Source: Phycisphaerae bacterium (lineage in GTDB: Bacteria > Planctomycetota > Phycisphaerae > Phycisphaerales > Phycisphaeraceae). From it: 64,000 bases of DNA. The position numbers were made by a program, and so were the translations under genes. The notes beneath the pieces are model-generated. The model was given only the letters and a program-made list of their open reading frames with translations. It was not told where the DNA came from and searched no databases. The DNA lies in assembly GCA_030432595.1 (NCBI GenBank), contig JAUIGU010000021.1, positions 1 through 64,000 of the forward strand, in the 5' to 3' direction. Positions 35,398 through 41,812 of the stretch are shown piece after piece; position 1 is the stretch's first letter, and every line of letters begins with the position of its first letter.

Positions 35398-36480
35398 TCA
35401 ATACGCGTTTTGTTTCCGCACCGGGAGTTGCTTGAGGTTCACGGTCGCGAGCAGGTCGGCGACGCGCGAGCCGGTGTCGCCCTTGCCGTAGGGGTGGCGG
35501 AACGTCTGGCGATCCAAGGACTCCGCGGTGGACACGGCGTCCGCAACACTCTGCCGGCCGTAGTCGCAGTCGATGACATTCTCGCAGCGTTCCCGTCCGG
35601 CTTGACGCGGGCCGATATTCACGCAAGGCGTGCCCAGGATCGCCGCCTCGATGAGACCGGCACTGCTGTTGCCCACGATCAGACGGGCGCCCTTGATGAG
35701 TTCCAGGAAACGCTTGCGTGGTACATGAGACGCGGTGCGTGGTTTCTTTGCTCGGATCGCGGCCACGATTCCCCCGAAACCCGGGTCGTGGTTGGGCTGA
35801 AAAACGAGGCGGTCATAATGGTCCGTGGCTTCGAGCGTGCCGAGCATGCGTTCGCGCTCGATGGGTTCATGGTCACCCACCGGGTGTTGAAGCACAATCA
35901 CTTCGGGCGCATCGGCGGCGGGCATGACGTCGGCCAAACCATCCGCCGCGGGCGAGCCGACTACGTGGACACACTCCGGGTTCTCGCCCATACGGAGGAG
36001 CCGTTCTTTGCTCTGGGCCGTTGCCGGGAGGTGCAGATGAGCCAGTTTGGACATGGCGTGTCGCATCGCTTCGTCGGAGACGCCCTCGGCGCGGTCGCCG
36101 CCGTGCATGTGGGCGACCCGGAGACCCGAGAGTGATGCGGCCGTCGTCGCCGCAAAGGCTTCGATCCGGTCACCAAGCACCAACACAAACTCGGGGCGCG
36201 GTTCAGGCTTGTCGAACAGACGTGTGAACAGAGAAATGCCTTGCCCCACTGCTTCGGCGTACTCTCGGCGCGTGCCCGAACCGGTGTCCATTCGAACCTG
36301 ATCGCTGGGCCGATATCGAAATCGTATGTCGCGCAGCGAGCCGGACGTTAAATGGGCACCTGCGACGATCAGGCGGAGTTTGAGGGTTGCCCGGTTTTCA
36401 ATCGCCTGGAGGACCGGCTCAAGCAAACCGTACTCGGCGCGGGTGCCGGTGACGACGGCGATGGTGCGCGGCGTGGCCAT
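35398..36480 (-). CDS. neuC: UDP-N-acetylglucosamine 2-epimerase, hydrolysing (NeuC/LegG type)
   Basis: Removes UDP and epimerises C2 of a UDP-HexNAc to supply ManNAc or its 6-deoxy-diamino analogue for nonulosonic acid synthesis. 360 residues: start IAVVTGTRAEYGLLEPVLQAI, VLVLGDRIEAFAATTAASLSGLRVAHMHGGD, then SDEAMRHAMSKLAHLHLPAT, and the GNSSAGLIEAAILGTPCVNIGPRQAGRERCENVI binding loop. It lies two bases after a CMP-sugar synthetase gene, so the two are an operon. Whether the product is sialic, legionaminic or another acid cannot be decided; the NeuB-type synthase is not in the window. Confidence 0.9.
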   Translation of the reverse strand: MATPRTIAVVTGTRAEYGLLEPVLQAIENRATLKLRLIVAGAHLTSGSLRDIRFRYRPSDQVRMDTGSGTRREYAEAVGQGISLFTRLFDKPEPRPEFVLVLGDRIEAFAATTAASLSGLRVAHMHGGDRAEGVSDEAMRHAMSKLAHLHLPATAQSKERLLRMGENPECVHVVGSPAADGLADVMPAADAPEVIVLQHPVGDHEPIERERMLGTLEATDHYDRLVFQPNHDPGFGGIVAAIRAKKPRTASHVPRKRFLELIKGARLIVGNSSAGLIEAAILGTPCVNIGPRQAGRERCENVIDCDYGRQSVADAVSTAESLDRQTFRHPYGKGDTGSRVADLLATVNLKQLPVRKQNAY

Positions 36481-36481
36481 G

Positions 36482-37204
36482 TCAGCCGGCGGCGCGCTGC
36501 TGGTTCGCGCGGCGCGTGAGGATCGCCTCGGCGACGATGAGGTCGAGTTCTTCGTCGATGTCCACGACTTCGCCGTGCCCGGTCACAATCGCGCGGCGGT
36601 CGATGCCCAGGAACGCGTGGGGCTCGCCAGCTTCAGTGTTTAACAACGACTCACGCGTGACCGCGATGACCCCGCCGTCGAGTTCGTAGAGCGGGGGCAG
36701 GTCCTGCCGACGGTACACGCGGTTGGGGATGTGCTGGAGCAGCGCGTCGCCGGTGTCGCCGCCGACTTCCTTCATCCAGTACGGGTGGTGCTTGCCGACG
36801 GGGCCGACGGACTGCACAGAGTCGCAGCCGGTGTCGCGGAGCTTGGCGACGGCGCGGTCGGTGAGGTCGGCCGGGCGGACGGGGATGTTGCCGTAGAGGA
36901 TGACCACCGCGTCGAAGTCGCCGTCGGGGTCGAGGCGTTGTACGGCGTGCCGCGCCGCGGCATCGACGGTGGCAGCGTCATCGGCGAGCGCGTGGGGGCG
37001 GTGGGTCACTTCGGCGCCGCACGACGCGGCGATGGCCTTGAGCTCGGCGCCGTCGGTGCTGACGACGAGCCGATCGAGCGATGCGCTGCGCTGGGCGTGC
37101 TCGATGGTCCACGCGAGCACGGGCCGGCCGGCACAGGGCAACGCGTTCTTGGAGGGCAGGCCTTGGCTGCCGGCGCGGGCGAGGATGACGGCGAGGGTGG
37201 GCAT
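36482..37204 (-). CDS. CMP-nonulosonate (acylneuraminate) cytidylyltransferase
   Basis: Activates a sialic-acid-like sugar with CTP. 240 residues from the ATG at 37204, which begins MPTLAVILARAGSQGLPSKNALPCAGRPVLAW, the CTP-binding fingerprint of NeuA/LegF/PseF. Further conserved parts are ATVDAAARHAVQRL, the ILYGNIPVRPADLTDRAV loop and HHPYWMKEV. The last helix ends GEVVDIDEELDLIVAEAIL, as in NeuA. A longer open frame to 37627 has no related sequence. It precedes the epimerase gene and follows the fused nucleotidyltransferase/SPASM gene across a heptamer array. Confidence 0.92.
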   Translation of the reverse strand: MPTLAVILARAGSQGLPSKNALPCAGRPVLAWTIEHAQRSASLDRLVVSTDGAELKAIAASCGAEVTHRPHALADDAATVDAAARHAVQRLDPDGDFDAVVILYGNIPVRPADLTDRAVAKLRDTGCDSVQSVGPVGKHHPYWMKEVGGDTGDALLQHIPNRVYRRQDLPPLYELDGGVIAVTRESLLNTEAGEPHAFLGIDRRAIVTGHGEVVDIDEELDLIVAEAILTRRANQQRAAG

Positions 37205-37266: not shown

Positions 37267-38955
37267 TCAGCAAACAACAGCGTCGCGCTGCGTTGCGTGG
37301 ATCGTGGCAAAATCGAAACAGCGTCGGCACATCGGCGAGTGGTCCGGCGACCACGCCGGGTCGAGATTCAGCGTCGGCACGCGCCGCCAGAGTTCGAGCA
37401 GGGACGCGTCGCGCACGTTGCCCAGCGCGGCGCGGCCGAACCAGTCCTGGTGGCACAGCGAGACGTCGCCGTTGCTCCAGACCGTCAGGCGTTGTTTGCG
37501 TTGGAACGGATCGGGTTCGGCCCACGGCGGGTCCATCGGCACGGGGTTGCGGTCGGGCGCCAACGCGAAATCGCCCGTGCCGCCGGTGGAAAAGCGCTGG
37601 ATCACGGCATGGTCGGCGAGCTGCCACCAGCGCTCGAAGAAGGTCTCCAACTCGGGCGTGGTCACGTCGGTCTTGGCGAGCATCGGCACGATGGCCGGGC
37701 GTTGGTCGGCGGGGTGATTGAACAGACGTTGCAGCGTCTGCAGAACCTGCGCGAACGCCTGGGTCCCGGTTTCCTTCGCGTGGGTCTCGGCAGTCTCGGC
37801 GTGCAACCGGACGAAGACCACGTCAGGCGCGCCGGCGAGGATTTGCTCGGCCAGCGCTTCGGGGGTTTCTTCCGAGTGGGCCAGCAGATCGGTTTCCAAC
37901 GCAACCACCAGAGCACCCGCGTCTTTCAATCCGGATACGGCGTCGGTCCAGCGTGGGTGAAGACGCGGATCGCCGACGCCACCGAGCGTGACTGTTCGGC
38001 CGCGCAGTTGCGGCGCAAGGTCGGTGAACACGTCGAACGGCAGATCTTCACGCTCGATGTCGGCGTGGTGGCCGGGCGTGCTCGGCCCGGTCGTCAGCCG
38101 GCGTGGCGTGAGTTCGACCACGATCTGCGGGGGCAACGACTCGAAACAGGGCGCAGGCCGGGCGGACTCATGACGCCGAACCGTTTCGGTCACGGCGAAC
38201 GCATCGGCGGTGACGTGATCGGTGCCGAGTTGCTCGAAGATACAGGTGATGCGTCGCTGCGCTTCGGGCGTATCAAAGATGAAGCGCCGCGCAGTGTCAC
38301 GAACGGAAGGCGGGACGGCGGCGTTGAACTCGAGCCCGATCGGGTCCAGGGCCGGGCGGCGCGGGTTGTAGGCGAGCAGGGACGCGAAGTCGTGCCCGGT
38401 GTTGGCCATGTCGTGCAGGAGTGACGCGGCCACGACGACGCCGCACAACCCGGGCGGGGCCTGGCTGAAACACAGCTTCATGTTGTCGGGCGCGGAGCGG
38501 TGGATGGCGAGCAGTTCACTGCAGAGCGCTGGATCGATCATCGGCCAGTCGGCACCCAGGATTAGCGCGGCATCGATGCCGTGCGCCGCGGCAACTTCGG
38601 CGAGCGGCGCGGTCGGCGTGAGTTCGTCCCAAACGGTGGCGCCTCGGAAACCGCCGCGCCAGCCGTCGAGCGTCCAGGCGCGGCGGATCGCGCGGCGGCG
38701 GGTGTTGGCGTCGTTCCAGGCGTCGGGCGGGATCGCGACCGGCTCGACCGGCCGATCGATTCCTGTGCCGGATAATTCGGGAATCGGACGATTCTCCGGG
38801 TGCAGCACCAGCACACGCGTAAGTCCTGGGGTCCGGGCGACGCGGCGGAGCGTGGCGCCCAGCACGGTGTCGTCGCCGAGCGGCGCGTCGAGCCGGCGGG
38901 CGTGGCCGAGTTGACCGGCGTCGGGGTTCGCGATGACCAGGGCCGCGGTGTTCAT
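37267..38955 (-). CDS. Nucleotidyltransferase-like domain fused to a SPASM protein without radical-SAM cysteines
   Basis: 562 residues. Residues 1-260 resemble SpsF/KdsB-type nucleotidyltransferases (VIANPD...LGATLRRVARTPGLTRVLVLHP, LILGADWPMIDPAL). Residues about 275-480 follow a radical-SAM barrel, but where CxxxCxxC should be stands ELTPRRLTTGPSTPGHH (281-297); the glycine strand TVTLGGVGDPRLHPRW is kept. The C-terminus is SPASM-like: VWSNGDVSLCHQDWFGRAALGNVRDASLLELW and CRRCFDF. So the barrel probably cannot bind the catalytic cluster, while the auxiliary cluster may remain. It sits in the nonulosonic acid/Maf cluster. Enzymatic role unknown. Confidence 0.75.
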   Translation of the reverse strand: MNTAALVIANPDAGQLGHARRLDAPLGDDTVLGATLRRVARTPGLTRVLVLHPENRPIPELSGTGIDRPVEPVAIPPDAWNDANTRRRAIRRAWTLDGWRGGFRGATVWDELTPTAPLAEVAAAHGIDAALILGADWPMIDPALCSELLAIHRSAPDNMKLCFSQAPPGLCGVVVAASLLHDMANTGHDFASLLAYNPRRPALDPIGLEFNAAVPPSVRDTARRFIFDTPEAQRRITCIFEQLGTDHVTADAFAVTETVRRHESARPAPCFESLPPQIVVELTPRRLTTGPSTPGHHADIEREDLPFDVFTDLAPQLRGRTVTLGGVGDPRLHPRWTDAVSGLKDAGALVVALETDLLAHSEETPEALAEQILAGAPDVVFVRLHAETAETHAKETGTQAFAQVLQTLQRLFNHPADQRPAIVPMLAKTDVTTPELETFFERWWQLADHAVIQRFSTGGTGDFALAPDRNPVPMDPPWAEPDPFQRKQRLTVWSNGDVSLCHQDWFGRAALGNVRDASLLELWRRVPTLNLDPAWSPDHSPMCRRCFDFATIHATQRDAVVC

Positions 38956-38986: not shown

Positions 38987-41017
38987 TTACGCCGCCTGGA
39001 CGAGCGGGCCCGCGGCCTCTGACCCCTGATCGACCGCGCCCGGGTTCTCGGCTTTCTCTTTCATCGCACGCCGCTGCCGTTCTGCCCGGTCGAGCGCGTC
39101 GCGGAAGATCGCCAGCGCCTCCTCGCTCGCCTGCCCGAGCCAGCGCAGGTTTTCCTGATCGCGTTTGAGTTGCCGGCCGAGCTTTTCGTGGTCCGTCACG
39201 CCGCTGCGTTCGATCAGGCGGTCGTTGCGCTGGCGATGGAAGGCACCGATGATGTTGACGGTGTTCACGAGCGCGAAGATCTCGCCGAGTTCGCCGTGGA
39301 CGCGGGCCTTGTAGACGTCGAGCTTCTTGAACAGCTTGTTGAGCTTGTCCTTCTGGCTGAGGTGTTTCTGCATCTCGTCAAGCAGCGCGGTGGACTCCCT
39401 GCAGAGCCTCCCCAACGCCTGCGTCTCTTTCACACGTTCGGCCAGGCGGGCGGTCAACGCGGCGTGACGGGCGTCGTCCAGTTCGGTCGAGGGCAGAGGC
39501 AGCCGCGGCACGTCTGCCGTGGCGTGCCGTTCGAGCGTGTCGCGCAGTGCCGCGCGGGTCGTGTGCGCCTTGGGCAGGCCGCCTTCGGTGGCGTCGATCA
39601 CGGCGGTGCCCGCGTCAGCCATCTCCTTGAAGTCGCGCTCGAACTGCTTGAGGTACGTGAGCATCTGCTCGTCGGAGAAACACGGCCGGCCGTGCACGTC
39701 TTCCATCCGGCGGATGCTGCCGCGCATGCGGGCGATGCGCGTCCACTCCATCATCTCGATCGTGTTGATCGGCGAAAGCTCGCACGCCCAGACCTTGTGC
39801 ACCGCGGTGCCGGGCGCGTAGTAGAGCCCGTCGGAGAAGCCCAGGTCCTGCCCGATGAGCACGATCGGGTTGCAGCCCAGGTGCTGCGCGAGGTAGACGG
39901 ACAGGTGCGCGACGGTCGCGCCGGAATTGAGCGCGACGCGCGGCCGGGCCAGGTCGCCCAGCAGGCGGTCGCTGAAGTCGTTCTTGAGCAGCCGCACCGG
40001 CCCGGGGAACGCGTCGAGGACCGCCGGGTGCGCCTTGGGCTCGGCGACGAGCGTGACCTCGGGCAGCGGCGGAAGGCCCTCGTAGAACCGGGCACAGATC
40101 GGTGAGTAGTCCAGCGCGGTCACGAAGTCGGGACGGATTCCCCGGACCAACAGCGGCCGCAGCGCGGTCTGCACCGCGATCAGCACGACGCGTTTCCGCA
40201 AGTCCGGGTCGGCGAGCAGATCAACATTGCGCACCAGCGACGGGCCGGCGCCGACGCAGACCGCCACGCGGCCCTTCGCCGCGTCATGCAGATCGTCGGT
40301 CGTCGCGCCCGCGCCGTAGACCCCGAGGTTCAGCGCGAGGTTGCGGCAGGTCCGCGACGCGTTGACCAAGGCCGTCGCCAGGTTCGTGCGGCAGTAGGCC
40401 ATGAGGTCGGCGAGGTCGGTGCTGAACTGCGTGAACGACTCGGGGGCGAAGCGCCGGCTCGGCGGGTGCGTCACGAGCCGCGTCCCTTGCGTGAGGACGG
40501 CGGCGAAGCCCTCGAGCCGGGCGGTGAGCTCGCTGCGGTCGGCGTCGGGGCCGAACACGAAGACGTTCTTCTCGCCCAGCCAGGCGCTGTGGTCGACGCG
40601 TTCGAGCGTGGCGCGGAGCAGCGCGACATCCGGCTCAAAGACGATCAAGACCCCGAAGCTGCCGAGCGTGCGGTGCGCGGCCGCGGCGTGGTACCCGACG
40701 CCGAACCCCAGCACGGCGGCCGAGGCTATCTGGTCGTCGTCGAGTTCCCGGGTGAGTTTGTCCGCCTCCCCCACGGGGTCGTAGCGGCTGGCGAGGGTGA
40801 CGGGCCGGCCGGACAGTTCGCGGGTCGCGGTCCACGGGCCGGCTTTGGATTCGACCCACACGAGCTCGGCGGGAACCGCACGTTCGACGGATGCGGCGAT
40901 GGCCGGGTTCGAACGCGACAGCGCCGACAGATTCTTCCGCAGCGTCTCAGAAGACGGAGCGGGCGAGGTCGTACCGAAGGACCCAGAATCAGGGATGGAC
41001 GGATCGCGCATAGCCAT
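38987..41017 (-). CDS. Maf-type flagellin glycosyltransferase (DUF115 family)
   Basis: Motility accessory factor family, whose members attach nonulosonic acids to flagellin Ser/Thr. Taking the ATG at 41017 gives 676 residues; an in-frame ATG at 41164 is an alternative, and no Shine-Dalgarno site decides. N-terminal domain with GFGVGYHAAAAHRTLG, then the DUF115 core: VCVGAGPSLVRNVDLLADP, FVTALDYSPICARFYEG, NSGATVAHLSVYLAQHLGCNPIVLIGQDLGFSDG, MEDVHGRPCFSDEQM, and a long helical C-terminal region (about 500-676). The neighbouring epimerase and CMP-transferase plausibly supply its sugar. The octamer CCGATAAC lies just before the ATG. Confidence 0.87.
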   Translation of the reverse strand: MAMRDPSIPDSGSFGTTSPAPSSETLRKNLSALSRSNPAIAASVERAVPAELVWVESKAGPWTATRELSGRPVTLASRYDPVGEADKLTRELDDDQIASAAVLGFGVGYHAAAAHRTLGSFGVLIVFEPDVALLRATLERVDHSAWLGEKNVFVFGPDADRSELTARLEGFAAVLTQGTRLVTHPPSRRFAPESFTQFSTDLADLMAYCRTNLATALVNASRTCRNLALNLGVYGAGATTDDLHDAAKGRVAVCVGAGPSLVRNVDLLADPDLRKRVVLIAVQTALRPLLVRGIRPDFVTALDYSPICARFYEGLPPLPEVTLVAEPKAHPAVLDAFPGPVRLLKNDFSDRLLGDLARPRVALNSGATVAHLSVYLAQHLGCNPIVLIGQDLGFSDGLYYAPGTAVHKVWACELSPINTIEMMEWTRIARMRGSIRRMEDVHGRPCFSDEQMLTYLKQFERDFKEMADAGTAVIDATEGGLPKAHTTRAALRDTLERHATADVPRLPLPSTELDDARHAALTARLAERVKETQALGRLCRESTALLDEMQKHLSQKDKLNKLFKKLDVYKARVHGELGEIFALVNTVNIIGAFHRQRNDRLIERSGVTDHEKLGRQLKRDQENLRWLGQASEEALAIFRDALDRAERQRRAMKEKAENPGAVDQGSEAAGPLVQAA

Positions 41018-41027
41018 GGCCACAGGG

Positions 41028-41035
41028 GTTATCGG
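41028..41035 (-). promoter_or_regulatory. CCGATAAC motif before maf (sigma-28 -10-like)
   Basis: Reads CCGATAAC on the minus strand, 11 bases ahead of the ATG at 41017. The flanks CCGATAACCCCTGTGG match 15 of 16 bases of the site before motA. No TAAA-type -35 box was found, so the promoter role is a suggestion. Confidence 0.35.
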
Positions 41036-41203
41036 AGCATCACGGGCCGCGGCTGCAAACACCGGGGGGATCCGCGCCAAGTCCGCAGACGAGTGGCCCA
41101 CAGGTTTCTCAGGCTCAACCCACGTGGACGAAACCGGGCCCGGCCCACGCTCGAAAGCGGCCATCGCTCTTCGTGCCGTCCGTTCTCGGCGTAGGATGAC
41201 CCG

Positions 41204-41812
41204 ATGCTCGCGGTGGTCGATGTGCTTCAGCGATTCGTTTTTGAGCAGCCCTGGCCGCTCGCCATCGCCCTGGCCATCGTGTCGGCGGCGGTCAACGTCG
41301 CGGGCCAGAGGAAACGCAGCAAGGCGATGCGGCGTGGGTCGATGGCCGTCGCCGTCGTCGCCGGCGCGGTGCTGGCCCTGGGCTACACCCTCGAGACCGG
41401 CAACGAAGCCGTCGAACGCCACACGCACGGCCTGATCGACGCCACCGCCCCGCTCGACCTGGCAGCCTTCCAGGACCTGCTCGCCGACGACGCCCGCCTA
41501 CTCGGCGCCGACGGCGACATCTGGATCACCGGCGACGAGATCGTCGCCCGCCTGGACAACCGCGTGGCCGACCTCGAACTCGATCAGCGGATCACGGGCC
41601 TGACCGTCCAGCCCGTGCCCGGTCAACCGGGCCAGCGCCGCGCCGAGTTGGACCTGCGGACCAAAACCGTCAACACCGGCGGGCTGCCGCTGCTGACCTC
41701 GTGGTCGCTCCTGTGGCAGCGCGACGCAGACGACCCGCGAGTGTGGCGTCTGCTGGACGCCCGATGGCTACGATTCAACCAGAACCCGCCGACGCGAGAC
41801 ATGATCCGATGA
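41204..41812 (+). CDS. Hypothetical membrane protein with a SnoaL-like domain
   Basis: 202 residues. Two N-terminal membrane helices (about 17-33 and 46-62) with a basic loop QRKRSKAMRRGS between them, then a soluble domain of about 130 residues (LDLAAFQDLLADDARLLG..., RAELDLRTKTVNTGGLP, WSLLWQRDADDPRVWRLLDARWLRF) with the alpha-plus-beta pattern of NTF2/SnoaL folds. Function unknown. Its TGA overlaps the ATG of the next gene (ATGA), so the two are coupled. Divergent from maf. Confidence 0.75.
   Translation: MLAVVDVLQRFVFEQPWPLAIALAIVSAAVNVAGQRKRSKAMRRGSMAVAVVAGAVLALGYTLETGNEAVERHTHGLIDATAPLDLAAFQDLLADDARLLGADGDIWITGDEIVARLDNRVADLELDQRITGLTVQPVPGQPGQRRAELDLRTKTVNTGGLPLLTSWSLLWQRDADDPRVWRLLDARWLRFNQNPPTRDMIR

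Follow-up and report, generated by a model that had tools for sequence, protein, structure and literature searches.

A cysteine-less radical-SAM-type protein linked to Maf in flagellin glycosylation gene clusters of Planctomycetota

The window, by which is meant the whole stretch of 64,000 nucleotides analyzed here, encodes a protein, termed X, that raises a simple question: what does a relative of the radical-SAM enzymes do once it has lost the cysteines for its catalytic cluster, and why is it found among genes for flagellin glycosylation? The gene lies in a run of four on one strand, comprising maf, X, a CMP-sugar synthetase and neuC (Table 1), so that its placement in a nonulosonate/flagellin glycosylation cluster by the initial annotation holds. 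The synthetase-like gene also matches TIGR03584, with a score of 95 bits, below the cut-off of 205.7. Homologues of maf begin to align only at about residue 152, which makes a true start downstream of the listed GTG probable. Genes for NeuB and the flagellins are found on other contigs of the same genome. Maf proteins are described as transferring nonulosonic acids to serine and threonine residues of flagellin (PMC11339370).

Table 1. Positions in the window of X, its parts and the adjoining genes
Feature	Coordinates	Strand	Details
X	37267..38955	(-)	562 aa; nucleotidyltransferase (NTase)-like domain, cysteine-less radical-SAM-like barrel, twitch
X, N-terminal cytidylyltransferase-like domain, aa 1-265	38161..38955	(-)	conserved residues; 6oew fold match
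X, radical-SAM-type partial barrel, about aa 275-470	37546..38133	(-)	GGVGDP strand at 325-330 retained
X, former [4Fe-4S]/SAM loop, aa 281-293, ELTPRRLTTGPST	38077..38115	(-)	HMM alignment with BtrN
X, twitch-type C-terminus, aa 483-546	37318..37509	(-)	PF13186; C501, C543 and C546 present; 483 is Pro
maf, flagellin glycosyltransferase, MptE-like/DUF115	38987..41428	(-)	PF01973, 112 bits
CMP-nonulosonate synthetase-like gene, PseF/CTP_transf_3	36482..37204	(-)	ATG at 37204; PF02348, 62.9 bits
neuC, UDP-GlcNAc 2-epimerase, hydrolysing type	35398..36480	(-)	TIGR03568, 283 bits, above cut-off 235.9

The fold of X and its lost cluster site

The fold of X was assigned from an AlphaFold model guided by an alignment of 41 homologues (pLDDT 92.3, pTM 0.92); an alignment-free model, with a pLDDT of 41.6, was set aside. 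Residues 1-278 of the model superimpose on a Leptospira cytidylyltransferase (6oew) with a Z score of 22.2 and an rmsd of 2.5 over 218 residues, and the N-terminal part matches KdsB proteins with Z about 16 (16.3 for 1h7e). The predicted cytidylyltransferase fold is thus clear despite the remote sequence likeness, Pfam NTP_transf_3 scoring the domain at 12.8-16.3 bits, below its cut-off. The earlier description of this domain as CMP-KDO-synthetase-like therefore stands at the level of the fold but only remotely at that of sequence. The C-terminal part is predicted to resemble radical-SAM enzymes with an auxiliary cluster: BtrN, with a Z score of 18.8 for 220 of its 246 residues, and SuiB, SkfB, DesII and MoaA, with Z scores of 17-19. 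This partial TIM barrel places X within the radical-SAM fold, as had been anticipated, even though the Radical_SAM model PF04055 gives no report for the window protein alone; the same model is reported in 31 of the 41 homologues.

What the barrel lacks is the means to bind the SAM-cleaving [4Fe-4S] cluster. The sequence at the cluster site runs from P275 as P275-QIVVELTPRRLTTGPST, and a family profile, which finds BtrN with an E-value of 3e-10, sets C16, C20 and C23 of that enzyme opposite R286, G290 and T293 of X. In BtrN these three cysteines are the radical-SAM ligands (PMC9012708). None of the 59 aligned homologues has a cysteine in any of the three columns, and neither do four more that were inspected by eye (L112, L115, L116 and L117), giving 0 of 63 among Planctomycetota that represent both the order of the window and further classes. 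Because the same loss is seen across this range, it is, on the alignment, ancestral within the Planctomycetota as sampled. The absence of the cysteines reported in the initial annotation is thereby confirmed and found to be conserved; with no CxxxCxxC motif, X is a radical-SAM protein by fold and not by function.

Two readings of X are difficult to maintain against this pattern. That X still performs radical chemistry, using a cluster that is displaced or comes from outside, is highly improbable: the GG.GDP strand is retained, but there is no conserved cysteine near the loop, where isolated cysteines occur in only 7 of 59 homologues and never in a pattern, and outside the Phycisphaerales the loop sequence diverges freely. 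That X is a decaying pseudo-enzyme peculiar to the window genome is barely credible. The clade of the window protein has indeed lost one more cysteine than its relatives, but the identical loss of the cluster site in all 63, the open reading frame in every one of them and the comparison with the congener (dN 0.35, dS 1.0), from which X is judged to be under purifying selection, all stand against local decay. We reject both the pseudogene and the intact-enzyme readings on this pattern of conservation. As the cluster has been lost family-wide, a non-radical role follows, as the initial annotation had proposed.

X is not without named relatives, and its family is not altogether new. The closest is TIGR04321, the spiro-SPASM family of spirochetes, which has the same domain order and shares with the X family a strong preference for the four twitch cysteines described below. 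The model matches the window protein with 82 bits and a homologue (L051) from the Sedimentisphaerales, another order of the window's class, with 159 bits over profile positions 75-506 of 510; its cut-off of 250 bits is reached in none of 149 genomes of the phylum. At the radical-SAM cluster sites the preference of TIGR04321 for cysteine is mild, at +1.6, +4.1 and +2.2 bits, as against +7.2, +6.3 and +6.8 bits in the radical-SAM family TIGR04317. Likewise, replacing the loop residues of L051 in silico by three cysteines raises its TIGR04321 score by 8.1 bits, compared with 20.4 bits for a true radical-SAM model. These values suggest, indirectly, that the spirochete members are of mixed cysteine state, some of them perhaps with the cysteines. 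The full-length relatives found by our profile scan were all from Planctomycetota, and a search of plasmids returned only ordinary radical-SAM proteins. Radical-SAM/SPASM relatives are also represented by a named pseudo-SAM/SPASM family, TIGR04347, to which L051 scores 29 bits against a cut-off of 525. Cysteine-less radical-SAM relatives are therefore already a known kind.

An auxiliary site with a variable set of cysteines

The C-terminal part of X matches the SPASM model PF13186 with 30.5 bits (cut-off 21.5), and the initial annotation had drawn attention to a SPASM-like set of cysteines in this region. The cysteines themselves are of a different type. SPASM is a seven-cysteine motif (PMC6231123) that serves two auxiliary clusters, and the twitch domain is its truncated form, with about four cysteines for a single auxiliary cluster. 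The X family has at most four, arranged as in the twitch site of BtrN, with one cysteine before a beta-hairpin, one after it and then a CxxC pair. The likeness to BtrN, a twitch radical-SAM dehydrogenase (4m7t), thus extends from the barrel to the four-cysteine site; BtrN differs in having C16, C20 and C23, in its SAM chemistry and in the absence of an NTase-like domain.

All four twitch cysteines are present in 35 of the 59 homologues. The window protein belongs to a clade (with L002, L003, L004 and L014) that keeps three, the first having gone. In a further 19 homologues two or fewer remain, these being 16 forms fused to Maf together with L026, L029 and L040. Parsimony on the tree requires at least four departures from the four-cysteine state. 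The last-named protein, L040 (genome G030), has a single auxiliary cysteine, and its maf gene lies on another contig.

An Fe-S cluster on the three cysteines of the window protein is possible, because they occupy the same positions as the three that hold a [2Fe-2S] cluster in SkfB (PMC6231123). It is on this basis that X could be seen as a redox or oxygen sensor, in which a three-cysteine twitch cluster gates the activity of Maf. The retention of the three residues here and of four in the 35 homologues would fit such a sensor, as would the finding that BtrN still holds its auxiliary cluster when its three radical-SAM cysteines are removed (PMC9012708) and the fact that identity between X and its congener peaks in the twitch region, at 74.6%. 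Yet the auxiliary cysteines have been lost repeatedly while X stays with Maf, so that sensing cannot be the family-wide function, and we consider the sensor distinctly unlikely. The Fe-S sensor that had been put forward for X is consequently a poor general role. The same pattern weakens the idea that the auxiliary cluster is the point of the protein, since one ligand is missing here and nearly all have been lost in another lineage. The remaining metal site would then be structural or modulatory, dispensable, and vanishing in the forms fused to Maf.

The association of X with Maf

The partner that X does keep is Maf. Among 61 relatives, X and a PF01973 Maf are both present in the same 52 and both absent from the same 9, for which Fisher's test gives p 6e-11, a value that is overstated as it counts kin genomes as independent. 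Within the even sample of 149 planctomycete genomes, the N-terminal domain of X was detected in 18, and all 18 also have Maf and flagellin. In a further 15 genomes of this sample a match to Maf exceeds the cut-off of the family and X is absent, from which it follows that Maf can work without X.

The two genes are also physically linked. At 49 of 50 loci, fusions included, maf immediately precedes X in the same orientation; in G030 they are on different contigs. The pair remains intact in distant classes, where it is followed by genes for NeuB, NeuC, a PglD-type acyltransferase or a CMP-sugar synthetase, and in two genomes (G063 and G039) flagellin genes are found within about 12 kb of it. At 16 of the 50 loci, all in one branch, the pair has become a single reading frame of roughly 830-1470 residues, Maf followed by X. 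As maf and X are two separate frames at L004, there is one fusion lineage. The co-occurrence with maf and neuC that had been named as a check is thus borne out, for Maf in the distribution across relatives and for NeuC in the neighborhood. By its linkage, its co-occurrence with maf, the adjacent nonulosonate genes and the presence of flagellin, X belongs to a Maf-associated system.

Several loci depart from the usual arrangement. At L099:7316-12422, maf-like genes flank X on both sides in the same orientation. Degenerate Maf-X fusions are found at L045 and L046, in genomes without a flagellin match (G043 and G055, the former also without NeuB), and these point either to ongoing decay or to a target other than the flagellum.

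In the open-access literature we found no paper tying such cysteine-less radical-SAM relatives, or SPASM, to Maf or flagellin glycosylation, and nothing on spiro-SPASM. The link with Maf is thus without a published precedent that we could find, and it supplies a functional address, Maf-dependent flagellin glycosylation, for a family whose named relatives had no role that we found. It also describes a stepwise re-use of the radical-SAM fold, in which the catalytic cluster is lost first, a single auxiliary ligand next and almost all of these ligands after that, and the partnership with Maf hardens into fusion.

The conserved N-terminal motif and a proposed role

The invariant part of X is its N-terminal half. 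Twelve residues (R92, W99, R100, G101, G102, D110, E111, P167, P168, G169, D204 and R224) are at least 93% conserved over all 59 aligned homologues; columns at this level fall mainly in the NTase-like domain, whereas the barrel has seven of them and the twitch part has none. The motif is retained in the fused forms and in those that have lost cysteines. In the Maf-X fusions L048-L050, the C-terminal half is shortened, and the twitch part and cluster loop cannot be aligned; the N-domain motif remains.

Is this domain an enzyme? It would be one if X were an active nucleotidyltransferase, such as one more CMP-sugar synthetase that acts on a modified nonulosonate, with the C-terminal half as no more than a specificity module. 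The clear fold match to 6oew and KdsB speaks for this, as do D136, which lies opposite the metal aspartate of the 6oew family, and the D228-T motif, which in the Phycisphaerales resemble the metal-binding aspartate positions of cytidylyltransferases. The fold is what X has in common with the SpsF/KdsB-type enzymes (6oew, 1h7e). In X, however, the Gly-rich CTP loop and its lysine are not conserved (the stretch reads HARRL, LPSRL or variants of these), the R92/WRGG/DE motif is found instead, and a C-terminal barrel has been added. Most of the other classes have E, Y, L, S or A in place of D136, which is retained in the Phycisphaerales, and an ordinary CMP-sugar synthetase gene is already present downstream of X. 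An active nucleotidyltransferase is unlikely on these grounds, even if the conservation of D136 in the Phycisphaerales may leave room for catalysis there. From the loss of the CTP loop and of D136 in most other classes, we infer that the domain binds a nucleotide sugar and does not make one.

The nonulosonic acid donors of Maf are CMP-activated. In the reading that we favor, and regard as probable, X serves Maf as a non-radical accessory subunit, dealing with the CMP-nonulosonate donor, the flagellin, or both. A subunit is the most economical explanation of the linkage, the joint loss and the fusion with Maf, which together suggest that X binds Maf. Donor binding is assigned to the NTase-like half, since the motif there is the part of the protein that does not vary: the WRGG..DE, PPG and R elements would be near the nucleotide-sugar pocket, as a cytidylyltransferase fold would place them. 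The N-domain would bind CMP-nonulosonate from the neighboring synthetase and either pass it to Maf or set the donor specificity. The barrel and twitch, whose redox equipment is disposable, would act as a scaffold or as a surface for binding flagellin or Maf. Caulobacter FlmG, which combines a recognition module with a nonulosonate transferase and has its flagellin-binding module at the N-terminus (PMC7591256), resembles X by analogy of role only. If X does set donor or acceptor specificity, it would offer a genetic means of controlling which sugar is attached to which flagellin.

A more elaborate version, which we regard as quite doubtful, is a two-part transferase of Maf and an obligate X, in which a twitch-only Fe-S cluster, borne in most lineages by a radical-SAM fold devoid of radical chemistry, would make flagellin glycosylation responsive to oxygen or redox state. 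Separately, a nonulosonate cluster of the Sedimentisphaerales harbors, between its CMP-sugar synthetase and NeuB genes, an intact B12-binding radical-SAM gene (L097:7193-8686), the product of which may modify the sugar.
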